Source: Caldicellulosiruptor saccharolyticus DSM 8903 (GTDB lineage Bacteria; Bacillota; Thermoanaerobacteria; Caldicellulosiruptorales; Caldicellulosiruptoraceae). Taken from it: DNA of 64,000 nucleotides. Below the pieces are notes generated by a model. It saw nothing but the letters and a program-made list of their open reading frames with translations, ran no database searches and was not told where the DNA came from. The position numbers and the translations under genes are program-made. Shown here one piece after another: positions 21,696 through 59,172 of this stretch (position 1 is the first letter of the stretch; the number at the start of each line of letters is the position of its first letter). The stretch is from contig NC_009437.1 in NCBI RefSeq assembly GCF_000016545.1, positions 1,529,501 through 1,593,500 of the forward strand, in the 5' to 3' direction.

Positions 21696-22676
21696 CTATT
21701 TCCATAACTTTGAAAATTCTTTCATTGCACTTTCCTGCATAGTTGGCAAGACATGAGAGTAGGTATCGGCTGTGAGTTTGATATCGCTGTGACCTAAAAT
21801 CTCAGCAACAATTTTAGTATTTACCCCTAATGACAACATTAGCGTTGCAAAAGTGTGACGCAAATCGTGAAATCTTATGACTGGAAAGTTATATCTTTTT
21901 ACTAACAACTTAAATCTTTTGGACAAGTATCCAACAGTCAGGTTTCCAGTAGGAAGTCTTGGGCAAACAAAATCATCAGGCTTTGGCTTGATGGTTTCAT
22001 ATAGATTCTTAAGTTCAGAGAACAAAACATCATTTATATAAACAGAACGCTTTGACGTTTTTGTTTTTACATCAGACGTTTTTAATCCTCTATTGTTTCG
22101 CACTGATTTTACTACACTAATTATCCTTGCTTCAAAATTAACATCGTACCATTTGAGTGACACTATTTCTCCAGCCCTCATACCAGTATGTAGAGCTATC
22201 AACACAGGATAGTAAATGGTTTCGTTCCTGATAACTTCTAAAAACCTTTTGGCAGTTTCGACATCCCAAACATCAAATACTTTTTTCTCGGGCGATGGCG
22301 GTAAAACCTTTTTCACAGGATTATCACTGATATATTCCCACATTACAGCATGTTTGAAAATTTCATGCAAGAGCCTGTGTAGTTTGAGAATTGTACTATC
22401 TGATAGTTTTCCCGTTAGGTTCATATAGATTTTTTGAATATCTAAAGGCTTTATATCAGATAGGGGCTTGGTACCAATTGCTTTTATAGCCGGTATCAAA
22501 AGCTCTCTATATCTTTTTTGAGTTGACTGCTTAACTGCTATCTTAGCATAAGCTTCGAACCAGTAATTAACAAATTCTTGAAACGTTATAGAACTGCTCT
22601 TTAAATCTGAGTGCTGTTTTAAAATCTTTAGAATATCTTCCAACATTACTGTTAAATTTTCAATTTCAATGTTCAT
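21696..22676 (-). CDS. int: tyrosine recombinase integrase of the element
   Basis: Phage/ICE-type tyrosine integrase, 326 residues. The core-binding SAM-like domain is about 30-130; the catalytic set is complete: Arg167 (GMRAGE), Lys near 205-207 (KTKTSKR), His270 and Arg273 (HDLRHT), His296 (LGHSD) and nucleophile Tyr306 (DTYSHV). The N-terminal 25 residues are a short coil rather than the full Arm domain. It points to the tRNA-Trp fragment 50 bases away. GGGGGG precedes the start codon on the minus strand. It should carry out insertion and, with an excisionase not yet seen, excision. Confidence 0.93.
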   Translation of the reverse strand: MNIEIENLTVMLEDILKILKQHSDLKSSSITFQEFVNYWFEAYAKIAVKQSTQKRYRELLIPAIKAIGTKPLSDIKPLDIQKIYMNLTGKLSDSTILKLHRLLHEIFKHAVMWEYISDNPVKKVLPPSPEKKVFDVWDVETAKRFLEVIRNETIYYPVLIALHTGMRAGEIVSLKWYDVNFEARIISVVKSVRNNRGLKTSDVKTKTSKRSVYINDVLFSELKNLYETIKPKPDDFVCPRLPTGNLTVGYLSKRFKLLVKRYNFPVIRFHDLRHTFATLMLSLGVNTKIVAEILGHSDIKLTADTYSHVLPTMQESAMKEFSKLWK

Positions 22677-25002: not shown

Positions 25003-25636
25003 TGACATAACAAGCATTCTTGAAGATGGCACAATCTGCATTGGTGAGAACACATATACAAGAATTTACTACTTTTCAACACATGATTTCGGCTTACTTT
25101 CTGAGCCAGAACAACAGCTTTTTGAGAACGATTTGATTACTATAGTGCGTACGATTGATACTCCTGTGGAGCTTTTCACAACGGTGCAAAGGGTAGAAAT
25201 TGCAGGATATATTGATGTGCTTGACAGCGTGATAAATAATATCGAAACTTCTGAATCAATAAAAAGGTATACAAAAGCTTTGAAAGATAGGCTCGAGTTT
25301 TTGAGAACAAGCGATGAGTTTTTTGTGAGAAAAAACTACATCATACTATCTGTGGCAGAACAAAGACAGGATATTGCGCTTGACAAGTTAAATCTTGAAG
25401 AAAAAAAGCTCTTTCAGCTGTTCAAGCGTGCGTCAATAAAAGTGTACCAGCTTGACAGAATCTCTGCTGTGCAGCTTTTAAGAAGCCAGCTTAGAAGAGG
25501 GAGCTCGCTTCTTTTGTCAAAAGCGGTCAAAAGCGGTGCGCTTGCAAGTATAATCACAGGAAGGGGGATAATAGCTGATGAAATTGAAAACAAAGAACAA
25601 GAACTTAAGCAAGAATACCGGGCAGCCCAAACATGA
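24953..25636 (+). CDS. TraC-like conjugation protein (VirB4 N-domain-like)
   Basis: About 225 residues; the sequence LKSLFDITSILEDGTI followed by FENDLITIV and the long helical part resembles TraC-like proteins found before virB4 in Gram-positive elements. No good ribosome site precedes GTG 24953 or ATG 24959, and no start lies soon after, so expression may depend on slippage at the A9 run from the upstream one-helix frame. The 3' end overlaps virB4 by 59 bases. It likely sits at the inner face of the membrane with VirB4. Confidence 0.6.
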   Translation: MVMQKKREKQGDLKSLFDITSILEDGTICIGENTYTRIYYFSTHDFGLLSEPEQQLFENDLITIVRTIDTPVELFTTVQRVEIAGYIDVLDSVINNIETSESIKRYTKALKDRLEFLRTSDEFFVRKNYIILSVAEQRQDIALDKLNLEEKKLFQLFKRASIKVYQLDRISAVQLLRSQLRRGSSLLLSKAVKSGALASIITGRGIIADEIENKEQELKQEYRAAQT

Positions 25637-27416
25637 AACCAGTATGTTTGAACTAACACCCGATATATTTGATTTGTTCTTGCCTGATGCATTTCAAGAA
25701 AATGTTGACTATATCTATCTCGGGCCAGAAAACTACTGCAGGGTGTATGTACTTGACATTGACTATCCAGGCGAAATGTATGTAGGCTTTTTTGACAGCC
25801 TTCTTGACAAAGGAGAAATAGCTATTTCTGTATTTATTGAGCCAAGGGACACAGGAGAAGCTATTAAAGATATTACAAGAAGAATTAACGCAATGAAATC
25901 AAACGCAATGCTTCAAAGAGGCGAACCTGATTACAAGCTTTTAGCACAGATAGAATGGTATGATGCTCTGAGGTCATCACTGCAAAGAAACCTTGAGAAA
26001 ATTCTTATGACACAGGTATTTATTGTTGTGTATGCAAAAACACTTGAAAAGCTAAAAGAAGATTGTATCAGGATAACAAAGTTTGCAGAATCTTTGGGAC
26101 TTAACATGCGCTGTTTGTCTTTCGAGCAGCAAAAAGGCTTTTTGTCCAGCCTTCCGCTTGGTCCAAGAAACTTGAGATACTTTGAAAAGTTCAGACTAAT
26201 GACTACATCCTCTACAGCCTGTTTGTTCCCAGTAGGAAACACAGATATATCATATGATGAAGGTTTTTATATCGGCTACAACGTGATAACAAACAGCCCA
26301 GTATTTTATAACCAGTTTGACAAACAACTTCCCAATCCCCACATGGCAATTTTTGGAACAACGGGTGCCGGGAAATCAACAACAATGAAAACAATGCTCG
26401 GGAGAATGGCAGCATATGGTTATAACATATGTGTTCTTGACCCTGAACGTGAATATGAAAAGATAATAAACATGCTGGGAGGAAAGTATGTCAGGATAAG
26501 ACCAGGGGAAAAGCTTGGTATAAACCCGTTCGATGTTGAGGTTGAAGAGGAAGAAGGGAAGAGATTTATAGATCTTAACTCAAAAGTTGCGGACATAAGG
26601 TTTATTTTAAACATCATCTCTGAATATTATATTGGCAAAAAGCTTGACGGTGTTCAGATGGCAGCAATTGAGCGTATTGTAAGAAAACTTTATTATGACA
26701 GAGGTATAACATCCGACCCTGACAGCCTATACACTTCAGTCAGAATGGACGAAAAAGGACAGCTTCTTGTTGGAAAAATCAAAAAGGAGCTTCCAACGCT
26801 ATCTGATTTGAGAGAAGAGCTTTATAAAGAAAGCGAAACACAGGCTTTAGCAAAAGCTATGGAGGTTTTTGTTGGTGAAGGGTCACTGGCACTTTTTGAC
26901 TGTCAAACCACAATCGATGCTGATGATAAAATTATTGCATTTGACTTAAAAGAATTTGAACGTGACAATTTCTTAAAGTTTTTTGCTTCTGTCAATATAC
27001 TCAGCTGGATATGGAACAAGTTTTCAAACGCAAAGTTAAAAGGCCAAAAGAAAGTAGTAATATTTGATGAGGCATGGATGTTCACGAGGTATCAGGCCTC
27101 AGCTGAGTATCTTGAATTTATATCACGTAAAGGTCGAAAGTATAAAATATCTTTGATGATAGCTTCACAGACACTGCTTGAATTTCTCATGAACGACACA
27201 GGAAGAGCAATTATAAACATGTGCGCAAGCAAATTCTTAATGCGACAGGAAAGCGACATGGCAGCACAGATTGCTGAGTTTTTCAGACTGTCAGAACGAA
27301 CAACAGAAATCATAACATCAGCTGACAAAGGACAGGGAATCCTTATGAACCCAAGAGAGAAAATATTTGTGCAAATAACACCTTTTGATTTTGAGTGGGA
27401 ATATGTAACCACTTAA
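25578..27416 (+). CDS. virB4: VirB4-type conjugation ATPase
   Basis: 612 residues. N-terminal domain about 1-240, then the RecA-like motor with Walker A GTTGAGKST (260-268), the DPEREYEKI segment, Walker B VVIFDEAWMF (about 493-502) and the downstream Gln-rich sensor SLMIASQTLLEF. It powers assembly and transport of the type IV secretion channel. AAGGGGG lies before the ATG. It overlaps the TraC-like gene and is followed by a VirB6-like gene 17 bases on. Confidence 0.92.
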   Translation: MKLKTKNKNLSKNTGQPKHETSMFELTPDIFDLFLPDAFQENVDYIYLGPENYCRVYVLDIDYPGEMYVGFFDSLLDKGEIAISVFIEPRDTGEAIKDITRRINAMKSNAMLQRGEPDYKLLAQIEWYDALRSSLQRNLEKILMTQVFIVVYAKTLEKLKEDCIRITKFAESLGLNMRCLSFEQQKGFLSSLPLGPRNLRYFEKFRLMTTSSTACLFPVGNTDISYDEGFYIGYNVITNSPVFYNQFDKQLPNPHMAIFGTTGAGKSTTMKTMLGRMAAYGYNICVLDPEREYEKIINMLGGKYVRIRPGEKLGINPFDVEVEEEEGKRFIDLNSKVADIRFILNIISEYYIGKKLDGVQMAAIERIVRKLYYDRGITSDPDSLYTSVRMDEKGQLLVGKIKKELPTLSDLREELYKESETQALAKAMEVFVGEGSLALFDCQTTIDADDKIIAFDLKEFERDNFLKFFASVNILSWIWNKFSNAKLKGQKKVVIFDEAWMFTRYQASAEYLEFISRKGRKYKISLMIASQTLLEFLMNDTGRAIINMCASKFLMRQESDMAAQIAEFFRLSERTTEIITSADKGQGILMNPREKIFVQITPFDFEWEYVTT

Positions 27417-30892: not shown

Positions 30893-31846
30893 ATGAGTAA
30901 AAAAAGACGCTCTAAGGATGTGGGTTTTAAGAAAATTTTCACAAACAAAACTAATATCCACTGGTTTATAACTGAGTTTTTAGGTAACTTTCTACCCTGT
31001 AAAATCGGACTTGATGATATTGAAATGCTTGCAACAGAATCAATTAACAGTCAGTGGAAAGCACGCAGGTCAGATGTGGTATACAAAATAAAGTACAAAG
31101 ACGCTTTTGTCTGCATACTTTTAGAGTTTCAAAACACAAAAGAAGAGCTGTTCCACTGCAGAATATATGAATATGTGCTGCTGATACAGAAAAAATATGC
31201 TATTGAAGACCTTCTTCCAGTAGTAATACCTGTTGTATTGTACACTGGACAGGAAAGGTGGACACCTACAACATCTTTTGAAAAAGGTATTCTCTACTGG
31301 AAGGATTTTGAGCAGTTTGCACAAAAGTTCAATTTCATATTCATTGACATCAAAGAAATAGATGACGAAAAACTACTAAATGGTTCTAATCTGTTATCGG
31401 CAGCGCTGTATATTGACAAAGTATCAGAAAATCCAATCGAAGTTGCTGAAAGGCTAGAATATTTAAGCAAACACATTAAGTTTTCTGAAGAACAAAAGGA
31501 AGAGTTTTGTGAATGGTTGTACCACGTGGTGTTAAAGGGATACGGTTTTACTGATATGGAAGTAGACGAATTTGTGTTCAAGTCCGATTTTCTGAGATTG
31601 GGGGTGAATGAAATGTTTCTCAACACTGCAGAAAAGATAAGAGAAGGACTGAAAAAGGAATTAGCAAAAGAAAGAGAAGTTGCTATCAAAGAAGGTATTC
31701 AACAAGGTATTCAACAAGGCAAAGAACAAGCTCTTATAGAAGTAGCTCAGAGAATGATTGCAGAAGGTGCTGAAGATTCTTTCATAACAAAAGTCACAGG
31801 ACTCAGTATTGAAAAAGTCCAGGAACTTCGAAATAACCTCAAATAG
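30893..31846 (+). CDS. Rpn-family nuclease / Transposase_31-like, copy 1
   Basis: 317 residues of the Rpn (recombination-promoting nuclease, YhgA-like) family, PD-(D/E)XK fold. Start motif VGFKKIF; catalytic Asp61 in ARRSDVVY, Glu78 and Gln80 in LLEFQ. The C-terminal part carries two IQQG repeats and the conserved end FITKVTGLSIEKVQELR. GGGGGGAG precedes the ATG. It is a diverged relative of the two identical copies at 45.4 and 54.5 kb and lacks their flanking repeats, so it seems to be an older insertion. Confidence 0.85.
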   Translation: MSKKRRSKDVGFKKIFTNKTNIHWFITEFLGNFLPCKIGLDDIEMLATESINSQWKARRSDVVYKIKYKDAFVCILLEFQNTKEELFHCRIYEYVLLIQKKYAIEDLLPVVIPVVLYTGQERWTPTTSFEKGILYWKDFEQFAQKFNFIFIDIKEIDDEKLLNGSNLLSAALYIDKVSENPIEVAERLEYLSKHIKFSEEQKEEFCEWLYHVVLKGYGFTDMEVDEFVFKSDFLRLGVNEMFLNTAEKIREGLKKELAKEREVAIKEGIQQGIQQGKEQALIEVAQRMIAEGAEDSFITKVTGLSIEKVQELRNNLK

Positions 31847-37876: not shown

Positions 37877-38812
37877 ATGCTGCAGATAAACGAAAAAGAC
37901 AACAAGCTTTTTGACATGATTGTAAAATTCAAGATGTTGCCATACGACATGGCAAAAAAAATATATGGTGGCAAATGGCCAGCATACAAACGTATTGAAA
38001 GACTTACCAGCAGAGGATACTTACAAAAAGTCAACCACTACATTCTTACCCTTGGCGAAGCAGGTATAGCATACTTGGAAGAAGTAAGAGGAATAACATT
38101 TGAACCACTTGTCAAGATGACGGCAGAAGAGGTTATCTGGCGCTGGCAAAAAGTTTATGAAATCGGCTCACGAGAATATATTCTGCCACACTTTATCAGC
38201 TGCTGGGATTTTAAAAGAGAAACAAGAAACGACAGCACCGAGATGAGTGACAAGAACAAGATACTCTGTGTGGCAAGGGGTTATGGTATTTACAGAATTT
38301 CAAAAGAAGCAGGACAAAAGACAATCTCAGAGTTCTTTACAGACATCAAAGAAGCAACAACGTTTGGAGTAGAAAAGTTCGTGGTTTTATGCGAATCAAA
38401 AGAGAAGGTTGAAGAATTTTTAGCAGCAGAAGAGAGAATCCAAAACATAGCAGCAAAAGAAATAAACGTGCTTGGCTACACACAGGCAGGGCTAAAGATT
38501 CTTGATACCATAATTGGTATACCCGACTACAAAGAAAAAATCTTAAATTCCCTGCCAGTAGAAAAAACTAGCATACTAAAAAATGCACATGGTGACTTCG
38601 AAACGGAAGACAGGATAATTCACATAGGTGCAGGAGACATAGCAGCAAAAAGAAGACTTCAGGCACTAAAAGCAGTGACAGACAAGACGATAGAAATTAT
38701 CACTCTCAAAGGTCTTGAAGACAGATACAAAGGACTTGAAGCCAAAATAATAGCACTTGAGCTTTCAGAGTTTTTGAAAACTGTAGGATATAAGGAGAGT
38801 GAAAACAGGTGA
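37877..38812 (+). CDS. replication-relaxation-like winged-helix protein
   Basis: 311 residues. N-terminal winged helix (MLPYDMAKKIYGGKWPAYKRIERLTSRGYLQKV, residues 15-48) then a nuclease-like alpha/beta domain, as in the replication-relaxation family encoded beside mobilisation ATPases. The gene overlaps virD4 by 4 bases. It may bind oriT, here the adjacent hairpin array, and hand DNA to the coupling ATPase. No relaxase Tyr/His motif is visible. Confidence 0.6.
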   Translation: MLQINEKDNKLFDMIVKFKMLPYDMAKKIYGGKWPAYKRIERLTSRGYLQKVNHYILTLGEAGIAYLEEVRGITFEPLVKMTAEEVIWRWQKVYEIGSREYILPHFISCWDFKRETRNDSTEMSDKNKILCVARGYGIYRISKEAGQKTISEFFTDIKEATTFGVEKFVVLCESKEKVEEFLAAEERIQNIAAKEINVLGYTQAGLKILDTIIGIPDYKEKILNSLPVEKTSILKNAHGDFETEDRIIHIGAGDIAAKRRLQALKAVTDKTIEIITLKGLEDRYKGLEAKIIALELSEFLKTVGYKESENR

Positions 38813-40647
38813 AGAAGAAGTTGCTTGGAATTGCCATAGCAGTAGCTTTATTTTATCTTCTCACAGGCTACATCATAGGAATGCTAACAGAGCTTTTGAA
38901 GATAAACCAGGAAAGCTTTTTCTTCTCACCAGAAAAGGCACCGCAAATCAAAATAGAAACAGACCCTGTAAAAGCTTTGCAAAATGTATTTGCAAACCCT
39001 GATATCAAAAAAGCATGGCTTGGCTTTACAACTTTTTTACTACTGGCAGGAGCTCTTTTGCTGCTTCCTTACAAAGAAAGAATAAAAGCGCTGTTTGGCA
39101 GTCAGGCACCAAAAGACCCCAGAGGAACATACGGGACATCAGATTGGATGACAGAAAAAGAAGCAAGAAAGGTTTTCGGTTTTAATAAACCGGGAATAAT
39201 TCTTGGCAAAGTCTCAAATGAGCTTGTAACTTTGCCATTTGACGCAAGGTATAACAAGCACATAATGGTACTTGGCGCAACAGGTGCAGGGAAATCAAGA
39301 ACGTTCATAATACCAAATGTGATAGCTTTAGCTGAAGCAGGACACAGCATGGTAATCACAGACCCATCAGGCGAAATACTTGAACACACATATAAGTACC
39401 TTCTGAAAAAAGGCTACTTTGTAAAAGCACTCAATCTTGTGGATTTTAAGCTCTCAGACCCATGGAACCCGCTTGACTCAATTGAAGATGAAGAAGATGC
39501 GCAGGTTTTTGCGGATATTGTGATAAAGAACACAGAAACAGGCAGAAGAGGTGGAGATCCTTTCTGGGACAGAGCAGAACTGAATCTTTTAAAAGCACTT
39601 GTACTTTACGTAAAAGAATTTCTTCCACCAGAAAAACAGAACATGGCAAAGGTTTATGACCTTCTTGCATCAAAAGACCCTGCAATGATTGTAAAGCTGT
39701 TTGAAAACATACCAGATAACAAAGCTGCAAAAATGGCATACAATTTGTATTCGCAAGTAAACGAAAAAGTAAAATCAGGCGTTGTAATGGGACTTGGAAC
39801 AAGACTTCAGCTTTTTCAGAACAAGCTTGTAAGATGTATGACACAGCACAGTGAAATAGATTTGCTCTCCCCAAAACTCAAAAAAACTGCATACTTTTGT
39901 ATCATCCCTGACCAGCACTCGGCATACAGCTTTATGAGCTCTCTTTTCTTTAGCTTTTTGTTTATAAAACTTGTAAAGCTCAATGATACAACTACTGATA
40001 AAACCATAAAAAACAGACACGTATACTTTCTTTTGGATGAGTTTTGCAACATTGGTGAAATACCTGACTTTACCAAGAAAATCTCGACGATACGAAAACG
40101 AAACCTGCACTGTCAGATAGTTATACAAAGTATTCCACAAATTGAAGACAGATACCCCGGAGGACAGTGGAAAGAGATAATAGGCAACTGTGACACTTTT
40201 CTGTGTCTTGGTGTTAATGACCCTGACACAGCAAGATATGTATCAGAGCTTTTAGGTATAAAAAGTATACAAACAAGAAGCACATCACATCCCGGCGACT
40301 TTAATGCAATATTCGAAACAGAAAGAATAACACAATCGGTAGGAAAAAGGCTTCTTTTGAACCCTGATGAGGTAAAGAAGTTCGATGCAAAGAAAAACAT
40401 CGTAATCTTGAGAGGCAAAAACCCGTTTATCACTGAAAAGATATTCTTTGACGAAATGAAACAGGCAAAAGAGCTTGAACCAGTAGCTATCGCGAGCTAC
40501 AAACCGAACCAAGAGATGCTACAACAAATAGAGGTGTATGAACATCAAACAGAAGAAGTGAAAGAAAAAGACTTGAAAGAACAAACTGCTACCCAAGAAA
40601 CAAAAGCCCTGCCAGAAGAACAAGAAACAGACAGCGAGCTTTGGTAG
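38809..40647 (+). CDS. virD4: VirD4/TraG coupling ATPase
   Basis: 612 residues. Two N-terminal membrane helices (about 5-25 and 60-82), then the motor: Walker A GATGAGKSR (about 155-163), DPSGE, and Walker B YFLLDEFCNIGEIPDF (about 405-420), the TraG/VirD4 signature. It recruits the DNA substrate to the secretion channel. GTG start with AAGGAG upstream, overlapping the previous gene. The C-terminal 60 residues are acidic and Gln-rich. Confidence 0.93.
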   Translation: MKKKLLGIAIAVALFYLLTGYIIGMLTELLKINQESFFFSPEKAPQIKIETDPVKALQNVFANPDIKKAWLGFTTFLLLAGALLLLPYKERIKALFGSQAPKDPRGTYGTSDWMTEKEARKVFGFNKPGIILGKVSNELVTLPFDARYNKHIMVLGATGAGKSRTFIIPNVIALAEAGHSMVITDPSGEILEHTYKYLLKKGYFVKALNLVDFKLSDPWNPLDSIEDEEDAQVFADIVIKNTETGRRGGDPFWDRAELNLLKALVLYVKEFLPPEKQNMAKVYDLLASKDPAMIVKLFENIPDNKAAKMAYNLYSQVNEKVKSGVVMGLGTRLQLFQNKLVRCMTQHSEIDLLSPKLKKTAYFCIIPDQHSAYSFMSSLFFSFLFIKLVKLNDTTTDKTIKNRHVYFLLDEFCNIGEIPDFTKKISTIRKRNLHCQIVIQSIPQIEDRYPGGQWKEIIGNCDTFLCLGVNDPDTARYVSELLGIKSIQTRSTSHPGDFNAIFETERITQSVGKRLLLNPDEVKKFDAKKNIVILRGKNPFITEKIFFDEMKQAKELEPVAIASYKPNQEMLQQIEVYEHQTEEVKEKDLKEQTATQETKALPEEQETDSELW

Positions 40648-43179: not shown

Positions 43180-43238
43180 TCAGACGAGGGAAAATCCCCT
43201 GCTTTATTGTTGAAACAATTGTGAAGGGGGCAATGTTT

Positions 43239-44093
43239 ATGCGAAAAACATATTCACCTTTACGATATCCTGGAGGAAAAGCTTTTTTAAGTGATTTTAT
43301 AAAAAAAGTACTGATAGAAAACAACCTTATAAATTGCATATATGCTGAACCATATGCAGGTGGCGGTGGTCTTGCTCTTTCTCTTCTGTACGAAAAGATG
43401 GTGAAAAAGATTTTGTTAAACGACATAGACCCCGCAATTTTCTCACTTTGGTATTCAATGCTTTATTTTACTGAACAACTATGCGGTAAAATAAGAAAAT
43501 GTAAAGTAGACATTAATACATACATTGATACAAAAAAGAAATTTAAAACGGTACATAATGTCCTAGAGTTAGGATTTGCCACGCTATTTTTGAATCGTGT
43601 CAATCGTTCTGGCATATTAAAAGCAGGACCTATCGGTGGTTACAAGCAAGAGGGAAAGTACAAAATTGATTGCCGTTTTAATAAAGAAAAAATTATTCAA
43701 AGTATTCTTAAAATAGCTGAACAAAGAGAAAAAATAGAGATTTTTAATCTTGACGCTTTACATTTTTTAAAAGACATAAAACAAAATTTTTCTCCAGATG
43801 AAATTTTTATTTTTTTAGACCCCCCGTATTATCAAAAAGGCAACGAACTTTATATGAATTTTTATAAACACGAAGATCATCAATTTTTGTGCGAATTTTT
43901 AACTACAGAATTTAGAGACTATAAATGGATATTAACTTATGATAATTCTCCACAAATTATGGAAATGTATAAAAATAAGGCACCATTCGAATTAATTAAT
44001 GTTCGATACAGTGCAAACAAAAGTAGAAATGCTATAGAATTATTGTTTTATAACAATATTGTCTTGCCAACAAACAATAAAAGGTCTGCTTGA
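43239..44093 (+). CDS. N6-adenine DNA methyltransferase (Dam/D12 class)
   Basis: 284 residues of the D12 class. N-terminal PLRYPGGKAFL, SAM-binding AEPYAGGGGLAL (36-47) and catalytic DPPYY (194-198); insert domain about 60-160. ATG 43239 is preferred because AAGGGGG lies 8 bases upstream; starts at 43221 and 43233 are worse. It probably methylates GATC-like sites, but specificity is not readable. The convergent neighbour is a NurA-like fragment, not a recognised restriction enzyme, so it may be solitary or part of a degraded defence locus. Confidence 0.9.
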   Translation: MRKTYSPLRYPGGKAFLSDFIKKVLIENNLINCIYAEPYAGGGGLALSLLYEKMVKKILLNDIDPAIFSLWYSMLYFTEQLCGKIRKCKVDINTYIDTKKKFKTVHNVLELGFATLFLNRVNRSGILKAGPIGGYKQEGKYKIDCRFNKEKIIQSILKIAEQREKIEIFNLDALHFLKDIKQNFSPDEIFIFLDPPYYQKGNELYMNFYKHEDHQFLCEFLTTEFRDYKWILTYDNSPQIMEMYKNKAPFELINVRYSANKSRNAIELLFYNNIVLPTNNKRSA

Positions 44094-44850: not shown

Positions 44851-44882
44851 CTTAGGTGTTTATATAAAGTGTCAAATTTTTT
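44851..44882. repeat. 34-bp IS-end-like repeat, copy 1
   Basis: TTAGGTGTTTATATAAAGTG then TCAAATTTTTT. Related copies at 56736 and 56831. It resembles the terminal repeat of an insertion sequence whose body is gone. Confidence 0.55.
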
Positions 44883-44982
44883 AAAAGCAAAAGAAATCCA
44901 GGTTTAACACCAACATATGTTCGCTATTTATAACAAACTCAAGGCAATTCAAACTTTTCAAAACCATGGCAGACACAGGGTA

Positions 44983-45077
44983 GCTCGAAAGCCCGGAGCG
45001 GACTTCAGCACATGGCGCAAAGCAAGAATACAAGCGGGTTTGCGGGAAGTAGACAGGTCCGGAGAGAGCTTTCGAGC
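44983..45077 (+). ncRNA. nested multi-helix structure at the left of the Rpn unit
   Basis: Four nested perfect helices in 95 bases: GCTCGAAAGC/GCTTTCGAGC (44983, 45068), CCGGA/TCCGG (44993, 45058), ACTTC/GAAGT (45002, 45046), CGCAAA/TTTGCG (45016, 45039), with a 17-base terminal loop. It is visibly GC-richer than its surroundings. It may be a structured RNA or a DNA cruciform used in mobility. No known RNA family recognised; strand chosen to match rpn. Confidence 0.6.
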
Positions 45078-45245
45078 CGGGGTTAAGCAACAAAACAGGC
45101 AAAGGGGCAGGGAAAAGGTTTGTAAACGATTTCACAAGAGTGCTGCATAAAAAAGTCATATCAGCTACAAAACAATTGGTTCAAAAGCCCAAACATAACC
45201 TGTGCCAGTAGACAAAAGCCTTGAGAATTTCAACTCTGAGTTGTA

Positions 45246-45274
45246 TTGTAAAAACTGAAAATTAGAGATATAAT
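45246..45274 (+). promoter_or_regulatory. promoter of small-RNA module A
   Basis: TTGTAA, 17-base spacer, TATAAT. Confidence 0.65.
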
Positions 45275-45280
45275 GGAGTC

Positions 45281-45370
45281 AGTGGGAGAACCTATAAGCA
45301 CAATGCATCTACAGAAATGTAAAAATAAAAATTAAGTCACAGAAAAAAATTGCGGCTTTTTGCTTTTTTG
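45281..45370 (+). ncRNA. small-RNA module A, before rpn copy 2
   Basis: About 90-base predicted transcript from the promoter at 45246 to a T-rich end. Core TACA-GAAA-TGTA (45310-45321) followed by AAAATAAAAA is shared with modules B to E. Its 3' hairpin is weaker than in B and E. The rpn gene follows with its own extended -10 (GTGGTATAAT near 45391). Confidence 0.55.
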
Positions 45371-45419
45371 TAGTATAACTGCTCACTCTCGTGGTATAAT
45401 TAGATTGTAAGGCAATATG

Positions 45420-45448
45420 CCCCCTGGAAGTTTGCCAGGAAAAGGGGG
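45420..45448 (+). promoter_or_regulatory. hairpin covering the rpn ribosome site
   Basis: CCTGG (45423) pairs with CCAGG (45435), and the preceding CCC can pair with part of GGGGG (45444-45448), which is the ribosome site for GTG 45459. It may limit rpn translation. The same is present in the second copy (54454-54482). Confidence 0.45.
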
Positions 45449-45458
45449 TTTGCAGTTT

Positions 45459-46409
45459 GTGAAGTTAACAAGAAGCTATGATGTGGGGTTTAAAAAACTT
45501 TTTTCAGACAAGATAAATGTTTGCTGGTTTATAACCGAAATAATCCCGGAACCAAGACTCAAAAACTATACACAGTCGGATATTGAGATTGTTGCAACAG
45601 AGTCTATAAACACCCAGTGGAAAGCACGACGCTCTGATATGGTATACAGACTCCCCTATTCATCATCGTGGATATACTTGCTGGTGGAGTTTCAAAGCAG
45701 GCCAAGTAAGCAAATGCATTGCAGAATCTATGAGTACGTATTTCTTATTCAAAAGAAGTATCAGATAAACAAAAGACTTCCTGTAGTTGTACCAGTGGTT
45801 TTGTATAATGGAGTAGAAAAATGGCAACCTGCGACACAATTCGCTGATAACGTTGAATACGCAGAAGATTTTCCTGAGTATGTTCAGAAATTGAATTATA
45901 TTTTCATCGACGTAAGAGATATACCGGAGGATAAACTGCTGAATGGCAACAATGTGCTTGCCGCTGCCCTGTACGTAGACCAGGTTGCAACAAACCCGGA
46001 CAGTGTTGTAGAAAGACTTTTGGAACTGGGCAAAAACATCAGAATTCCGGAAGAACAAAGAGAAGAGCTGGCAGAATGGCTTTATCATGCAGTACTGAAA
46101 AGTTATAAGATACCCCGGGAAGAAGTCAACGAGTTGTTTGAAAAATCAAAAATTTTGGGGGTGGAAGAGATGTTTCAAAGTACTGCAATGAAAATTAAAA
46201 AAGGACTTGCAGAAGAAAAGAGAAAAATAAAGTTAGAGAGCAAAATTGAAGGGAAAATTGAAGGAAAGATTGAAGGCAGAATGGAAGCACAACTCGAGAT
46301 AGCAAGGAATCTGATACTTGAAGGTGCAGAAGATAGTTTTATAGCTAAAGTAACAGGACTTGATATTGAAAAAGTAAAAGAGCTTAGAAATCAACAACAA
46401 AAACAATAG
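45459..46409 (+). CDS. Rpn-family nuclease / Transposase_31-like, copy 2
   Basis: 316 residues. VGFKKLF start motif, catalytic Asp60 (ARRSDMVY), Glu77 and Gln79 (LLVEFQ), then a helical region and a C-terminal KIEG repeat (KIEGKIEGKIEGRMEAQ) before FIAKVTGLDIEKVKELR. GTG 45459 is preferred over ATG 45417 since AAAGGGGG lies 10 bases upstream. The family promotes recombination and cuts DNA; here the gene is within a block duplicated exactly 9 kb away, which fits a mobile role. Confidence 0.85.
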   Translation: MKLTRSYDVGFKKLFSDKINVCWFITEIIPEPRLKNYTQSDIEIVATESINTQWKARRSDMVYRLPYSSSWIYLLVEFQSRPSKQMHCRIYEYVFLIQKKYQINKRLPVVVPVVLYNGVEKWQPATQFADNVEYAEDFPEYVQKLNYIFIDVRDIPEDKLLNGNNVLAAALYVDQVATNPDSVVERLLELGKNIRIPEEQREELAEWLYHAVLKSYKIPREEVNELFEKSKILGVEEMFQSTAMKIKKGLAEEKRKIKLESKIEGKIEGKIEGRMEAQLEIARNLILEGAEDSFIAKVTGLDIEKVKELRNQQQKQ

Positions 46410-46566
46410 ATTTTGAGGCGGTTAACCCTGCCTTTTGTTTTCAGGAACAGAGTCAAGGTATAGTAACTAAAAAGTCATGTTGGTCAAAAAACGACCAGCA
46501 CAAAAGCCCAAACAAGGCTTGTTCCAGTAGTCAAAGAGCTTTGAAAAAATCTCTTTTTAAATTGTA

Positions 46567-46595
46567 TTGCAAAAACTGCAAAGAAGGTGTATAAT
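46567..46595 (+). promoter_or_regulatory. promoter of small-RNA module B
   Basis: TTGCAA, 17-base spacer, TATAAT. Confidence 0.7.
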
Positions 46596-46601
46596 AAAAC
46601 C

Positions 46602-46686
46602 AATTAGCGAAACCACACCCTAAAACCTGTCTACAAAAATGTAAAAATAAAAAACTACCACAGCAAAAGCTGTGGTTTTTGTTTTT
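46602..46686 (+). ncRNA. small-RNA module B, before the DUF4258/MqsA-like pair
   Basis: About 85-base predicted RNA with TACA-AAAA-TGTA (46632-46643), then terminator CCACAGC-AAAA-GCTGTGG (46658-46675) and T-rich tail. An extended -10 for the next genes (GTGGTATAAT) follows at about 46714. Confidence 0.6.
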
Positions 46687-46798
46687 TGCAGCATAAATAC
46701 ACCGGTTTGTGGTATAATCTTATTAGATAGCCTCCCTTTGGCAGTTTGAAATAAAATTTTTAAGGAGTATAAGAAAAAAGGAGATAAAGTTCACAACA

Positions 46799-47119
46799 AT
46801 GGAGCTAATCATGGATGAAATAAGAAAACTGGCTAAAAAAAGAAAAATAAAATGGCAAAACCATATGATACAAAGAATGAGAGAAAGAAACATAACAAGA
46901 ACAGATGTACTGGAATGTATACAGGAAGGCGAAATTATAGAGCAGTACAATAAAGATTATCCTTATCCAAGCTGCTTAATAATGGGGAGAACCAAAAAGG
47001 GGAATGTATTGCATGTTGTTTGTGCTGTTGGAGAAGGATGGTTATGGTTTATAACCGCTTATTATCCTTCTGAAGATGAGTGGTGTGATGATTTCAAAAC
47101 GAGGAGGAATAAAGAATGA
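46799..47119 (+). CDS. DUF4258 toxin-like protein
   Basis: 106 residues. IKWQNHMIQRMRERNITRTDVLECI is the DUF4258 start pattern (His, Arg, Arg), followed by strands (GRTKKGNVLHVVCAV, GWLWFITAYYPSEDEW). Such proteins pair with YgiT/MqsA-type antitoxins and are taken as RNase toxins. The ribosome site AAGGAG is 15 bases from the ATG, rather far, which would keep synthesis low. The stop overlaps the antitoxin start by 4 bases. Confidence 0.75.
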   Translation: MELIMDEIRKLAKKRKIKWQNHMIQRMRERNITRTDVLECIQEGEIIEQYNKDYPYPSCLIMGRTKKGNVLHVVCAVGEGWLWFITAYYPSEDEWCDDFKTRRNKE

Positions 47120-47346
47120 AATGTTCATTGTGCGGTGCAAGCATGATAGAGGGGAAAATTAAACATATTGTAGATATGGAAAAACAAACTATTATTATTA
47201 AGGACGTTCCCGCTCTTGTATGTAAACAATGCGGAGCATCATTCCTTGACGACGAAGTTGTTGAAAAACTTGAAAAAATAGTAGATGAGCTATTGAAAAA
47301 CAGAGCAGAAATTGTTATTGCAAATTATTCTGAAATGGCCGCATAA
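47116..47346 (+). CDS. MqsA/YgiT-type zinc-finger antitoxin
   Basis: 76 residues with Cys3/Cys6 (MKCSLCG) and Cys36/Cys39 (VCKQCGASF), the four-Cys zinc domain of MqsA-like antitoxins, but without the C-terminal HTH domain of full-length MqsA. It overlaps the DUF4258 gene. Thus it should bind the toxin but may not repress its promoter on its own. Confidence 0.8.
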   Translation: MKCSLCGASMIEGKIKHIVDMEKQTIIIKDVPALVCKQCGASFLDDEVVEKLEKIVDELLKNRAEIVIANYSEMAA

Positions 47347-49354: not shown

Positions 49355-50953
49355 ATGAGAAAACTTTTGAGCTTTGCAGTCATCCTGAGCCTGCTTTTGA
49401 GCTTTACCTTTCCGATAGCACAGGCAGGAACAATCACACAGAAAGTACAGGCAGCAATAAACAAAATAGACTACATCACAGCAGGTGAGTTTGTAACATC
49501 GCTTTTAATAGGTGCAAAGGTAAAGCCAAATGCAATAGCTGACTACTGGGGGAAAGCTTTATCAATGGGCTTGATACCGGGTGAGGTCAAAAAAGACAAG
49601 CCGCTTACACGAGCTCAGGCAAGCTACATTGTGTGGAAACTCATAAATGCAGTGCCAGAGCTTAAGGATAAGAATATACCGGTCAAAACAGTTGTACTGT
49701 CACCGGTAGATTACACGTTCTGGTCAGGAGGGGATGTAACTCACAATTTCAGAGGTGCTTATGTTGCGTGGGGTCCACCAGAATGGGATAATAGGCCTTG
49801 GGCACATTTTAATTCAAAATATGCTGTAATGGCATATGACCTTGTTGTGATTGACAAGTATTATAAGGATGGAACAGTTAAGACAGTGCATGTGTGGAAC
49901 AGGCTCAAAGATTACTTTTTGCCGCTTGACTGGTGGAAGGTTTTGCAGAGGTTTATGAAAGAGAACCCTGACAAAGTCAAGTTTGACCTGCCAGCAGAAA
50001 GGCTCAAAGCTCAAGTATGGGTGTTGGGGAATCATGGCGTTAATGTTTTGGCAAGTAAATCAATTACAGATAACAAATTTGCTGTACCATCGAATATTAA
50101 CAGACAGTTATATTCCCTGTTCTATGTACCAAAAGGTATTCCACATAGCTGGGGTGAAGGTTATTCATTCTTTACCCTAAAGTATAGCAAAGAGATTGCT
50201 GGAGGAGAAATGAAGCCACTTTACTGGCAGATATTCTTACCATGGCTTGAATTTGGCAAATACAAAAGCACAAATGTAGATGACTGGCAGTGGACAGCAG
50301 AGCTCAATCCTGTGACAAATGAAGCACTTAACAGGTGGCTTATGAAACTGCCAAGGAAATTCCCGCTTGACTGGACGAGATTTAAATATATTTGTTCAGA
50401 CTTTAGCAGAATACCAACGCTGTATCAGGAAGCAGTCTTAAGGCTTGCAGACCTTGGCATAATCCAGCCAGAAGCCAATGTTACTCCAGATGTTTTTAAG
50501 GATAAGAAGAAGTTCAAGACAATCATGAATTATGTAACATGGCAACTAAATCGACCGACACTCACAGAAATGCCTGATATAAGGTTCAATGCAGGTAAGG
50601 CTTTAACAAGAGCAGAAGCAGTTGATATGATAACAAAGGTATTTGATGACAGTAAAAGAGTTGTGTTTGATGAGCTGACATTTGCAAATGATAATATCGA
50701 CGATTACGGGTATAATTATGGATTCAAAAAGAGAACAGGGTCTGAACCTAATGATGTTTCCACTGTCCTGTATTACCATGTAGGTAAGACTATAACGTAC
50801 CGAATAGATGAATTATGGCAACTGTTGTACATGAAATATGACTTGCCACAGAGGAAGGTTTCCCGATATCCAACGCAGTTAAGCTTTGAATGTAATTATG
50901 GTGCTATCTTTACGTCAAATTGGATTTATCCTTTGTATGATGGCACTCTATAA
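49355..50953 (+). CDS. large secreted protein with SLH-like segments, first pair
   Basis: 532 residues. Signal peptide KLLSFAVILSLLLSFTFPIAQA. SLH-like stretches: ITAGEFVTSLLIGAKV...LTRAQASYIVWK (near 40-95) and LTRAEAVDMITKVF (about 418-431), in between a Trp/Tyr-rich domain. It is a paralogue of the lipoprotein at 57.3 kb. AAAGGGAG precedes. SLH-like parts suggest binding to the cell wall; the protein may anchor a surface structure used in mating. A stump of a third paralogue is at 57041. Confidence 0.6.
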   Translation: MRKLLSFAVILSLLLSFTFPIAQAGTITQKVQAAINKIDYITAGEFVTSLLIGAKVKPNAIADYWGKALSMGLIPGEVKKDKPLTRAQASYIVWKLINAVPELKDKNIPVKTVVLSPVDYTFWSGGDVTHNFRGAYVAWGPPEWDNRPWAHFNSKYAVMAYDLVVIDKYYKDGTVKTVHVWNRLKDYFLPLDWWKVLQRFMKENPDKVKFDLPAERLKAQVWVLGNHGVNVLASKSITDNKFAVPSNINRQLYSLFYVPKGIPHSWGEGYSFFTLKYSKEIAGGEMKPLYWQIFLPWLEFGKYKSTNVDDWQWTAELNPVTNEALNRWLMKLPRKFPLDWTRFKYICSDFSRIPTLYQEAVLRLADLGIIQPEANVTPDVFKDKKKFKTIMNYVTWQLNRPTLTEMPDIRFNAGKALTRAEAVDMITKVFDDSKRVVFDELTFANDNIDDYGYNYGFKKRTGSEPNDVSTVLYYHVGKTITYRIDELWQLLYMKYDLPQRKVSRYPTQLSFECNYGAIFTSNWIYPLYDGTL

Positions 50954-53930: not shown

Positions 53931-54016
53931 TCTTTGCTTGCCCCAACAAATGTTCGCTATTCTAAAATCAATTCAAAGCAAATCGAGCTTTCTGAAACTC
54001 CAGCAGACACAGGGTA

Positions 54017-54111
54017 GCTCGAAAGCCCGGAGCGGACTTCAGCACATGGCGCAAAGCAAGAATACAAGCGGGTTTGCGGGAAGTAGACAGGTCCGGAGAG
54101 AGCTTTCGAGC
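54017..54111 (+). ncRNA. nested multi-helix structure, second copy
   Basis: Identical to 44983-45077 with the same four nested helices. Confidence 0.6.
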
Positions 54112-54314
54112 CGGGGTTAAGCAACAAAACAGGCAAAGGGGCAGGGAAAAGGTTTGTAAACGATTTCACAAGAGTGCTGCATAAAAAAGTCATATCAGCT
54201 ACAAAACAATTGGTTCAAAAGCCCAAACATAACCTGTGCCAGTAGACAAAAGCCTTGAGAATTTCAACTCTGAGTTGTATTGTAAAAACTGAAAATTAGA
54301 GATATAATGGAGTC

Positions 54315-54404
54315 AGTGGGAGAACCTATAAGCACAATGCATCTACAGAAATGTAAAAATAAAAATTAAGTCACAGAAAAAAATTGCGGCTTTTTGCTTT
54401 TTTG
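54315..54404 (+). ncRNA. small-RNA module C (identical to A)
   Basis: Promoter TTGTAA-17-TATAAT at 54280-54308, core TACA-GAAA-TGTA, before rpn copy 3. Confidence 0.55.
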
Positions 54405-54492
54405 TAGTATAACTGCTCACTCTCGTGGTATAATTAGATTGTAAGGCAATATGCCCCCTGGAAGTTTGCCAGGAAAAGGGGGTTTGCAGTTT

Positions 54493-55443
54493 GTGAAGTT
54501 AACAAGAAGCTATGATGTGGGGTTTAAAAAACTTTTTTCAGACAAGATAAATGTTTGCTGGTTTATAACCGAAATAATCCCGGAACCAAGACTCAAAAAC
54601 TATACACAGTCGGATATTGAGATTGTTGCAACAGAGTCTATAAACACCCAGTGGAAAGCACGACGCTCTGATATGGTATACAGACTCCCCTATTCATCAT
54701 CGTGGATATACTTGCTGGTGGAGTTTCAAAGCAGGCCAAGTAAGCAAATGCATTGCAGAATCTATGAGTACGTATTTCTTATTCAAAAGAAGTATCAGAT
54801 AAACAAAAGACTTCCTGTAGTTGTACCAGTGGTTTTGTATAATGGAGTAGAAAAATGGCAACCTGCGACACAATTCGCTGATAACGTTGAATACGCAGAA
54901 GATTTTCCTGAGTATGTTCAGAAATTGAATTATATTTTCATCGACGTAAGAGATATACCGGAGGATAAACTGCTGAATGGCAACAATGTGCTTGCCGCTG
55001 CCCTGTACGTAGACCAGGTTGCAACAAACCCGGACAGTGTTGTAGAAAGACTTTTGGAACTGGGCAAAAACATCAGAATTCCGGAAGAACAAAGAGAAGA
55101 GCTGGCAGAATGGCTTTATCATGCAGTACTGAAAAGTTATAAGATACCCCGGGAAGAAGTCAACGAGTTGTTTGAAAAATCAAAAATTTTGGGGGTGGAA
55201 GAGATGTTTCAAAGTACTGCAATGAAAATTAAAAAAGGACTTGCAGAAGAAAAGAGAAAAATAAAGTTAGAGAGCAAAATTGAAGGGAAAATTGAAGGAA
55301 AGATTGAAGGCAGAATGGAAGCACAACTCGAGATAGCAAGGAATCTGATACTTGAAGGTGCAGAAGATAGTTTTATAGCTAAAGTAACAGGACTTGATAT
55401 TGAAAAAGTAAAAGAGCTTAGAAATCAACAACAAAAACAATAG
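54493..55443 (+). CDS. Rpn-family nuclease / Transposase_31-like, copy 3
   Basis: Protein identical to that of copy 2 (316 residues, Asp60, Glu77, Gln79 catalytic set, KIEG repeats near 255-272). GTG 54493 follows AAAGGGGG, which the CCTGG-CCAGG hairpin upstream may partly hide. Identity at DNA level points to very recent duplication or gene conversion. It lies between an Xre regulator and a Doc toxin-antitoxin pair. Confidence 0.85.
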   Translation: MKLTRSYDVGFKKLFSDKINVCWFITEIIPEPRLKNYTQSDIEIVATESINTQWKARRSDMVYRLPYSSSWIYLLVEFQSRPSKQMHCRIYEYVFLIQKKYQINKRLPVVVPVVLYNGVEKWQPATQFADNVEYAEDFPEYVQKLNYIFIDVRDIPEDKLLNGNNVLAAALYVDQVATNPDSVVERLLELGKNIRIPEEQREELAEWLYHAVLKSYKIPREEVNELFEKSKILGVEEMFQSTAMKIKKGLAEEKRKIKLESKIEGKIEGKIEGRMEAQLEIARNLILEGAEDSFIAKVTGLDIEKVKELRNQQQKQ

Positions 55444-55600
55444 ATTTTGAGGCGGTTAACCCTGCCTTTTGTTTTCAGGAACAGAGTCAAGGTATAGTAA
55501 CTAAAAAGTCATGTTGGTCAAAAAACGACCAGCACAAAAGCCCAAACAAGGCTTGTTCCAGTAGTCAAAGAGCTTTGAAAAAATCTCTTTTTAAATTGTA

Positions 55601-55629
55601 TTGCAAAAACTGCAAAGAAGGTGTATAAT
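55601..55629 (+). promoter_or_regulatory. promoter of small-RNA module D
   Basis: TTGCAA, 17-base spacer, TATAAT, as in module B. Confidence 0.65.
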
Positions 55630-55635
55630 AAAACC

Positions 55636-55724
55636 AATTAGCGAAACCACACCCTAAAACCTGTCTACAAAAATGTAAAAATAAAAAACTACCACAGCAA
55701 AGAGCTGTGGTTTTTGCTTTTTTT
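55636..55724 (+). ncRNA. small-RNA module D, before the Doc pair
   Basis: As module B, but the terminator reads CCACAGC-AAAGA-GCTGTGG; one base is inserted in the loop where identity with copy 1 ends. An extended -10 (GTGGTATAAT near 55747) follows. Confidence 0.58.
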
Positions 55725-55793
55725 GTAGCATAAATACACTGGTTTGTGGTATAATCATTATTAGAGAATCTTAAACCGGGGAGTTCTTTTGCC

Positions 55794-56368: not shown

Positions 56369-56401
56369 AAAATCAATCAAAGCTAAACACAAAAGATTGT
56401 G

Positions 56402-56430
56402 TTGCAAAAACTGAAATTTGGGTGTATAAT
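56402..56430 (+). promoter_or_regulatory. promoter of small-RNA module E
   Basis: TTGCAA, 17-base spacer, TATAAT. Confidence 0.68.
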
Positions 56431-56436
56431 AAACAC

Positions 56437-56520
56437 AGCAGGTAGAACCATATTCAAAATGCGTCTACAGAAATGTAAAAATAGAAATTCAGACCGCAAA
56501 TTTTCTGCGGTTTTTGTTTT
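56437..56520 (+). ncRNA. small-RNA module E, before a 44-residue membrane peptide
   Basis: Core TACA-GAAA-TGTA (56466-56477), terminator CCGCA/TGCGG (56494-56510), long T tail. The next ribosome site begins right after the T run. Confidence 0.58.
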
Positions 56521-56538
56521 TTTTTCGAGGTGTTCAAA

Positions 56539-56735: not shown

Positions 56736-56769
56736 CTTATAGGTGTTTATATAGAGTGTCAAATTTTTT
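56736..56769. repeat. 34-bp IS-end-like repeat, copy 2
   Basis: AGGTGTTTATATAGAGTG then TCAAATTTTTT. Direct repeat of the copy 95 bases on. It lies in the 56674-57040 stretch, which holds only promoters and repeats. Confidence 0.55.
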
Positions 56770-56830: not shown

Positions 56831-56864
56831 CTTTTAGGTGTTTATACAGAGTGTCAAATTTTTT
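56831..56864. repeat. 34-bp IS-end-like repeat, copy 3
   Basis: AGGTGTTTATACAGAGTG then TCAAATTTTTT. Confidence 0.55.
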
Positions 56865-56865
56865 A

Positions 56866-57291: not shown

Positions 57292-59172
57292 ATGAAAAAC
57301 ACATTTAGAAAGGTAACAGTACTTTTGTTTTCAGTTGTATTGATATTTATGACAGCGTGTGGTAATGGCCCGGCAAAAAAGACTTCACAGCCAAAAGCTA
57401 CAGCACAGCCAAAGCAAACTGTATTAGCTAAGCTTGCGCAGACAGCACCTGCAATCACAACAGCAAAAGGTTTTACAGAAGCTCTTCTGTCAAGAGCAAG
57501 GGTTGAACCTGCAACATTTGAACAGGCAAAGACTCTTGGGATTGTTCCCGCAGAGGTTAAACCAGGCAGCGTGCTTACAAGAGCTCAAGCGTCATACATC
57601 ATGTGGAACGCTATAAAGAAGATTGATTATCTCAAGGTCAAGAACATACCAGTTTCAACAGCAGTGTATGACCTGTGGGAGAGTTACCTTTCAGGGAAAG
57701 ACATTGTGCTCAACCCCGGTTACAGCACACTTGCAGCGTACCAGTTTTTTGATTTTCTCAGATACGAAATTTGCTACCCCGATGGAACAAAGGATGTAAA
57801 GTTTGTGTACAACCCTGTGCTTTTGAACGGCAAATGCGCAATGGACACAAAACAAAGCGTCCAGAATCTTATAAGGACATTCAAGAAAAAGTATCCAGAC
57901 AAACTCAAGATTGCAATACTTGAAAGACCAAACATCAAGGTTGTCAGGAATGCTAAGAGGATATTAAGCTACAAGATAAAAAGTAATGGGGAGAAAGTTC
58001 CGTATACAATAGCAAAGGGCGACATCTACTATATACTGTTTGAACGTGACAGATTGCCCAGCAACTATTCATACTTTGTTTTAGAAAACGGCGAAAAAAT
58101 AAACTATTTTCCTACTTTGCTTTTTTACACAGGTTATGACCCAACCCATGGCGCTAAAATACCCGGTTTTTCAGATACAAATGAAAACTTCATCAACGTC
58201 ATAATGCCCAAGATAGACTTTCGATACAACAAATACATCTACAACTGGCTCAAAAGTCTCCCCAGAAGATACAAGTACTACGACTACAGGAGATTTGAAG
58301 CTCAAGGGTATATCGAGGATATAAAGAGCATACCACAGCTTTACAAAGAACCAGTTCTCAGAATGTTTGACCTTGGCATATATATCTGGGATAAGTCTCC
58401 TTTCTACTGTCAGAAGGTGAGAGCAAAACCGGGAAAAACTTTGACTGAACAGGAAGCAAATGAGCTTCTGAACAGGCTTTTTGACAAGACAAAAAGAGAT
58501 GTGTTTGACGAGTTTAAAAATCAAGTAGCACTTTATCTTACACCGGCAGGAGATGTGATTTGTGGACGTACAAACCTTGGGAAAGCGTTTCAGGTAGCAA
58601 GAATGCAACCTTATGATTATAGCAGTGTCATTTGTGAACAGGACGGCGCTATATTCGATACTCCGATTGCAACACTGAGACTTTTACCGGGTGTAGCTCA
58701 GGAAATGAAGTGGAATACAGTCAACGGTCTTGAAAGAGATGAAGGGTACAAAGCTATACTTTCATGGGGTTCAGCTTCTCTGCCCTTGAATGTAGGAAGA
58801 CACGAAGGACTTTACTTCACACTTTATACTACTCCGGTTGTTTCAGCAAGGTCTGGTTTGCCTACTGTAAGAGTACCTGTAGATTATTTTTTGATTACCC
58901 CCAAAATGGTTGCAGCAAGTGGAGTTTCTATACCACAAGCGTATAAAAAACAGGCCTTTGAAAAGGATGCGAAGTATTACTATTCAACAAAGACAAAAGC
59001 GCTTGTTCCCAACAAGCCGGGTGTCATAGTTCAGTATGGAGACTTGTATCTTTACATGTATGCTTTCACATGGGATGGCAATATACTGTTTGGGAATAGG
59101 AGCTTTTACGAAAAACCTGACATACCCGGCGCAAAATTTGTTGTTGCAAAACCAGACCCGAGCTACAAATAA
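57292..59172 (+). CDS. large lipoprotein with SLH-like segments, second pair
   Basis: 626 residues. Lipoprotein signal with lipobox MTAC (LIFMTACGNG). After a Lys/Gln/Ala linker come ITTAKGFTEALLSRARVEP and VLTRAQASYIMWNAIKKI, matching the start of the 49355 protein; LTEQEANELLNRLFD near residue 383 matches its second motif. GAAAGGAGAGG precedes. A paralogous surface protein, here membrane anchored, followed like the first by an adhesin-like gene. Confidence 0.62.
   Translation: MKNTFRKVTVLLFSVVLIFMTACGNGPAKKTSQPKATAQPKQTVLAKLAQTAPAITTAKGFTEALLSRARVEPATFEQAKTLGIVPAEVKPGSVLTRAQASYIMWNAIKKIDYLKVKNIPVSTAVYDLWESYLSGKDIVLNPGYSTLAAYQFFDFLRYEICYPDGTKDVKFVYNPVLLNGKCAMDTKQSVQNLIRTFKKKYPDKLKIAILERPNIKVVRNAKRILSYKIKSNGEKVPYTIAKGDIYYILFERDRLPSNYSYFVLENGEKINYFPTLLFYTGYDPTHGAKIPGFSDTNENFINVIMPKIDFRYNKYIYNWLKSLPRRYKYYDYRRFEAQGYIEDIKSIPQLYKEPVLRMFDLGIYIWDKSPFYCQKVRAKPGKTLTEQEANELLNRLFDKTKRDVFDEFKNQVALYLTPAGDVICGRTNLGKAFQVARMQPYDYSSVICEQDGAIFDTPIATLRLLPGVAQEMKWNTVNGLERDEGYKAILSWGSASLPLNVGRHEGLYFTLYTTPVVSARSGLPTVRVPVDYFLITPKMVAASGVSIPQAYKKQAFEKDAKYYYSTKTKALVPNKPGVIVQYGDLYLYMYAFTWDGNILFGNRSFYEKPDIPGAKFVVAKPDPSYK

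Follow-up and report, generated by a model that had tools for sequence, protein, structure and literature searches.

A conserved, structured ~430-bp unit, a candidate regulatory region, upstream of toxin and defence genes on conjugative elements of Caldicellulosiruptor

Results

The window analysed here, a 64,000-nucleotide stretch of the Caldicellulosiruptor saccharolyticus DSM 8903 genome, holds an integrated conjugative element with genes for an integrase, a VirB4/TraG-like ATPase, a partition protein, and a VirD4-type coupling protein (Table 1). Downstream of the coupling-protein gene lie two Rpn-family nuclease/toxin genes, each preceded by a copy of a ~430-bp unit with a long hairpin at its core; Rpn proteins have been reported as toxin-antitoxin anti-phage (phage-defence) systems (PMC10327210). 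The segments 44909–46726 and 53943–55765, each made up of unit plus Rpn gene, form a direct duplication of 1.8 kb with 98.7% identity. The two Rpn copies are thus one recent duplication, and recombination between the conserved units accounts for it. A preliminary description had placed the hairpin in both Rpn units, and an identical hairpin is indeed found at 54017–54111, but because it lies inside the duplication, copy 2 provides no independent evidence. A third, diverged Rpn-family gene is located among the element's block of conjugation genes (30893–31846), a probable toxin-antitoxin pair (a DUF4258 protein and, after it, a small MqsA-like protein) is found at 46811–47346, and large secreted proteins without a Pfam match are encoded at 49355–50953 and 57292–59172; the near-identical signal regions of these secreted proteins (MRKLLSF...AQAGTITQ) recur beside units in several genomes.

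Table 1. Coordinates of the conjugative-element genes and of the parts of the unit (positions in the window unless a locus is named)
Feature	Position	Strand	Remarks
Tyrosine integrase	21696..22676	-	PF00589, 4.7e-27; adjoins host genes
VirB4/TraG-like ATPase	25578..27416	+	PF19044, 1.5e-17
Actin-like partition protein	from 34702		conjugative element
VirD4-type coupling protein	38809..40647	+	PF02534, 3.9e-70
D12-class adenine methyltransferase	43221..44093	+	PF02086, 8.7e-15; just upstream of the units
Unit, copy 1 (~430 bp)	44905..45336	+	sharp homology edges; copies in different contexts
SOS/LexA-box-like palindrome CCAACATATGTTCG	44910..44923		5' edge; 9/10 match to CGAACN4GTTCG
Outer stem P1, 10 bp	44983-44992/45068-45077	+	5' arm A, 3' arm B; AGCTCAAAAGCCC/GGGCTTTTGAGCC
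Second nested helix, 5 bp	44993-44997/45058-45062		every pair checked
Third nested helix, 5 bp	45002-45006/45046-45050		every pair checked
Innermost nested helix, 6 bp	45016-45021/45039-45044		every pair checked
P2, 5' side	44999..45001	+	three pairs conserved, five in copy 1; compensatory A-U / G-C change
P2, 3' side	45059..45061	+	compensatory A-U / G-C change
Inverted repeat TGTAAACGATTTCA	45121..45134	+	conserved; RNA hairpin or LacI-type operator-like site
Segment C GGTTCAAAAGCCC	45178..45190	+	repeats arm A; can pair with arm B in A's place
Sigma-A-like promoter TTGTAA-17-TATAAT	45246..45274	+	by sequence
Conserved CTACAGAAATGTAAAAATA	45309..45327	+	near 3' edge
Rpn-family nuclease/toxin gene, 3' of copy 1	45417..46409	+	PF04754, 5e-26; TIGR01784
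Unit, copy 2	53943..54370	+	hairpin at 54017-54111
Rpn gene, 3' of copy 2	54451..55443	+	
IscB-like HNH gene	L136:11595-12926 (reversed)		same upstream place
RRXRR/HNH gene	L135:11044-12459		same upstream place
XerC-like recombinase gene	L137:1212-2081		same upstream place

The hairpin consists of four nested perfect helices of 10, 5, 5, and 6 bp, exactly as first described, all 26 pairs of which we verified. No more than 19 nested Watson-Crick pairs were found in 150 random 95-base windows drawn from the 64 kb, and no more than 15 in 150 shuffles of its own bases, while its folding energy by itself is only moderately unusual (z = -2.0 on the plus strand and -2.3 on the minus strand). The GC-richer island in which the hairpin was said to lie is also borne out: GC content is 57% over positions 44975–45110, as against 41% for the whole unit and 36.5% for the window.

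A DNA search returned related copies confined to the hot-spring genus Caldicellulosiruptor. A covariance model built from ten close copies (R1) found further copies in 10 of the 12 genus genomes, and a second model built from 27 diverse copies (R2) gave ~45 matches, again in 10 of 12, a few of which count one palindrome twice, once per strand. R2 had no match in other genera among 299 genomes sampled from the phylum; scanning GTDB contigs for a 24-base pattern returned one hairpin, of another kind, and L079 and L080, matches from beyond the genus, were set aside as mere hairpins. Phage records and (by blastn) plasmid records held no match to the family, and Rfam searches at gathering and relaxed thresholds yielded only chance matches below threshold and no family, in line with the first impression that the structure belongs to no known RNA class. 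In nearly all closed genomes, the units lie on the strand that, judged from coordinates, appears to be co-directional with replication.

What the copies share is the outer stem and a short inner stem, P2, only. Among 25 other copies, pairing is kept in 82% of cells for the outer 10 bp and in 72% for the alternative CGGAC/GTCCG stem (44999-45003/45057-45061), but in only 45%, 46%, and 59% for the three inner helices of the preliminary description, which we therefore reject as family structure. In the alignment of 26 copies, the outer stem plus the three-pair P2 is paired in 84% of cells, with a covariation score and a percentage of paired cells that none of 500 shuffles reached, a contrast that is inflated by the relatedness of the copies. 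The consensus fold calculated by RNAalifold has an energy of -34 kcal/mol for the plus strand and -28 for the minus strand, as against -6.6 ± 2.7 when columns are permuted, and the loop motif AG(C/T)AGNCAAACC is conserved in sequence. It had been proposed that arms drifting without compensating changes in homologues would speak against the structure; when the homologues are compared in this way, the result favours the outer stem and goes against the inner helices. The covariation in outer stem and P2, together with the position of copies before Rpn and other defence genes, supports the view that a conserved structure works with the nuclease genes. A coding origin of the region was discarded, all frames across -60 to +117 being interrupted in most copies.

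Could the unit be a non-functional repeat that has spread with the element, its palindrome kept by gene conversion? The copies are homologous and recombining, the window pair is nearly identical, and some copies are truncated (L025 and L026), as such a repeat would have it; nevertheless, covariation between diverged copies exceeds that in shuffles, and box, hairpin, and inverted repeat are held at fixed spacing down to ~60% identity, so that we regard this explanation as very unlikely.

Pairwise comparison of copies in different surroundings places the edges of the unit at about -72 and +355 to +360 relative to position 44978. From 5' to 3', the unit comprises an SOS-box-like palindrome, the hairpin, the inverted repeat TGTAAACGATTACA, segment C, a sigma-A-like promoter, and a conserved CTACAAAAATGTAAAAATA. 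The palindrome matches CGAACN4GTTCG at 8 or more of 10 positions in most copies, at -66 to -86, as against 1 of 190 control windows, and exactly (10/10) in three copies; the subfamily with exact boxes (L070, L073, and L075) lies next to a sigma-like gene and a replication module of phage type. In B. subtilis and clostridia, LexA sites are GAACN4GTTC-like (PMC4234289, PMC8457756). In the genome from which the window comes, recA and lexA have related AAACN4GTTYG boxes upstream (AAACATTTGTTCG and AAACAACTGTTTG). With its CGAACN4GTTCG-type box, the unit carries the type of site expected of a LexA regulon member, and judged by its sequence the palindrome is a putative LexA box; because the copies are homologous, it need not be under selection in each of them. 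The TGTAAACGATTACA inverted repeat is nearly invariant, and its exact consensus is confined to units in this genome, which argues against a general operator.

Segment C offers arm B a second partner. The B:C pairing is preserved in most copies and is in several more stable than A:B, but covariation in B:C does not rise above that in shuffles. Since certain loci carry further hairpin copies ~200 bp apart, C is plausibly a remnant of a second repeat. Further downstream, the promoter TTGCAA-17-TATAAT is conserved in many copies. Relatives of the 3' part that hold only the sigma-A-like promoter, CTACAAAAATGTAAAAATA, and a terminator-like hairpin, the structured part being absent, are found at 46469–46718, 55503–55755, and 56397–56523, before other toxin-antitoxin genes, and recur genus-wide. 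A ~30-bp repeat, AGGTGTTTATATAAAGTGTCAAATTTTTTA, which looks like an insertion-sequence end remnant, occurs upstream of one unit class and elsewhere (in the window at 44852–44882, 56740–56769, and 56834–56865).

The genes found 3' of the units encode Rpn, PIN, Fic/Doc-like, AbiD, and PBECR4 nuclease proteins, type I/IIG restriction-modification systems, and Bro-N/KilAC proteins, and some units have RHH or HTH genes immediately 5' of them. In L023, a restriction-modification methylase gene starts 66 nt past the modelled structure, which makes the structure a leader or the immediate upstream region of that gene. In the Rpn-type loci L020 and L021, a terminator-like hairpin intervenes between unit and gene, which renders read-through into the gene less obvious there; other copies go straight to the gene, and no such hairpin was found between unit and gene in the window copy. 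These arrangements bear on whether the element is an independent, trans-acting small RNA, encoded between the sensor box and the gene that follows, and simply inherited along with the cargo. The conserved stem with its loop motif and the terminator-like hairpin before the gene in some copies would suit a small RNA; the several copies without a terminator before the next gene, the directly following gene in L023, and the failure to find a constitutive promoter upstream of the hairpin would not, and we consider such an RNA distinctly unlikely.

The recurrence of the units before different genes also raises the question of a recombination or transposition site (i.e., integron-like attachment sites or ends of small mobile elements that shuffle toxin cassettes), particularly as the cassette common to both window copies becomes identical immediately upstream of the hairpin and as one subfamily has three unrelated genes in a single upstream location. 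However, the integron integrase (TIGR02249), the cognate enzyme of integron attC sites, is below cut-off in all 12 genus genomes, so an attC identity was dropped; no copy-linked transposase and no inverted termini were noticed; and homologous recombination between units is enough for cassette exchange. A site of this kind is in our view improbable, and the earlier suggestion of a DNA hairpin recognized as a transposition end is not upheld: terminal repeats and a copy-linked transposase were not seen, and recombination accounts for the duplication. The shared place upstream of that subfamily, which in three genomes holds an IscB-like HNH gene, a different RRXRR/HNH gene, and a XerC-like recombinase gene (Table 1), is an insertion hotspot. 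The XerC-like recombinase beside the L070 unit was rejected as a partner of the unit, since in two relatives a related recombinase lies ~11 kb away and the adjacency looks incidental.

The units are linked to conjugation. Each of the eight VirD4 coupling-protein (T4CP) loci of the genus is followed, 4–40 kb downstream, by units on its own strand, 18 in total where 0.28 would be expected; multiplying the chances for the eight loci gives 4e-13, an overstatement because copies cluster. Both genus genomes without units also lack a T4CP. Three genomes hold two units each and no T4CP, those units being presumably remnants, and many other units lie far from any T4CP.

The unit may act as RNA or as DNA. 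The plus strand is more stable in 23 of 30 copies, with z-scores that do not differ between the strands under either RNA or DNA parameters; since, compared with shuffles, one strand folds about as well as the other, either strand, as RNA or as DNA, may be the acting form. Of the proposal of a structured RNA acting with the nuclease modules, then, the conserved structure before Rpn and other defence genes stands, with an RNA leader and single-stranded DNA both as candidate forms. The hairpin might instead fold in single-stranded DNA after conjugative transfer, either as a single-strand promoter of the Frpo/ssi type or as a priming site, so that the cargo would be expressed ahead of second-strand synthesis. 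The units resemble Frpo/ssi (PMC11541004) in being hairpin-forming DNA before anti-defence, toxin-antitoxin, and methyltransferase genes on conjugative elements: they precede toxin-antitoxin, restriction-modification, and methyltransferase-type genes, all in one orientation, in a setting like that of the leading-region anti-defence islands with Frpo promoters, and the fold is stable with DNA parameters on both strands. They differ in being longer and in that no -35/-10 boxes, which Frpo promoters require inside the stem, are found in the conserved stems, the sigma-A-like promoter lying outside the hairpin. Moreover, no relaxase or oriT was identified that would fix the transferred strand, and most outer-stem changes in close copies are compatible with G-U pairing on the plus strand, which, being the non-template strand, would not act as template. 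Taken together, we hold a single-stranded DNA promoter or priming site to be unlikely.

Discussion

Tentatively, and still with considerable doubt, we read the ~430-bp unit, with the hairpin as its core, as a structured regulatory region, often present in several copies, of the defence cargo of conjugative elements that may work by a switch mechanism; it probably controls the timing of toxin, restriction, and anti-phage genes. We infer transcription, LexA binding, switching, and timing at DNA entry from what is observed: a conserved unit, a covarying outer stem and P2, an SOS-box-like motif, a conserved alternative pairing, the gene context, and the link to conjugation. On this model, the unit would keep the toxin and defence genes at low expression as long as the element resides in the chromosome, and release them once the element comes under stress or has newly entered a cell. 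LexA would hold off a promoter at the putative SOS box at the 5' edge, and the SOS response, which single-stranded DNA entry could also trigger, would start a transcript through the structure. In that transcript, arm B would pair either with arm A to form the hairpin or with the downstream segment C, and the choice between A:B and B:C would set read-through or expression of the next gene; basal expression may come from the inner sigma-A-like promoter.

The closest parallel is with EGeRS1, the sequences that regulate establishment genes in Bacillus conjugative plasmids of the pLS20 family, which are 400–750 bp long, GC-richer than the element, and rich in inverted repeats, and which occur in several copies per element, 62–95% identical, each upstream of a different establishment or anti-defence operon; one has an internal duplication and EGeRS1-B lacks a sigma-A promoter (PMC8708921). 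A further mark of EGeRS1 is a block on transcription arriving from upstream. Like EGeRS1, the unit is a repeated, conserved region of the 400–750-bp class before variable genes on a conjugative element, is GC-richer than its surroundings, contains multiple inverted repeats, and shows an internal duplication; it differs in its SOS-box-like edge, in a sigma-A-like promoter predicted from the sequence, and in its genus. Similarity above ~60% was not found: blastn gave no match in the plasmid collection, R1 and R2 had no match on 50 kb of pLS20 including EGeRS1-B, and there was no significant alignment to EGeRS1-B. Because homology failed and the SOS-like box and sigma-A-like promoter set it apart, we regard the unit as an analogue of EGeRS1, not a homologue, and do not file it as a member. 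With EGeRS2/Reg of p576 (PMC8708921), the unit has in common a single repeated upstream region and putatively repressor-controlled cargo, RHH/HTH genes being near some units, but it is far more structured. The LexA-controlled toxin mRNA tisB of another organism (PMC7708055) combines SOS control with a structured 5' leader before a toxin gene, the design proposed here for the unit; we claim no homology between the two.

A stronger proposal, which we think somewhat unlikely, is that the unit is a new kind of bistable structured leader or single-stranded DNA switch that couples SOS or conjugative entry to toxin and defence cargo, arose independently of EGeRS1 and Frpo, and is reused as a cassette for swapping defence genes. 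The timing of establishment and defence genes in Gram-positive conjugative elements is an open question, and the description of EGeRS1 gave no mechanism. Another structured family, unrelated to EGeRS1 and found on conjugative elements of an extreme thermophile, with an SOS-like box, a testable alternative pairing, and ~45 variants, would provide a comparative system for addressing it, and in these genomes the unit may serve as a sequence tag by which defence and toxin cargo can be located.
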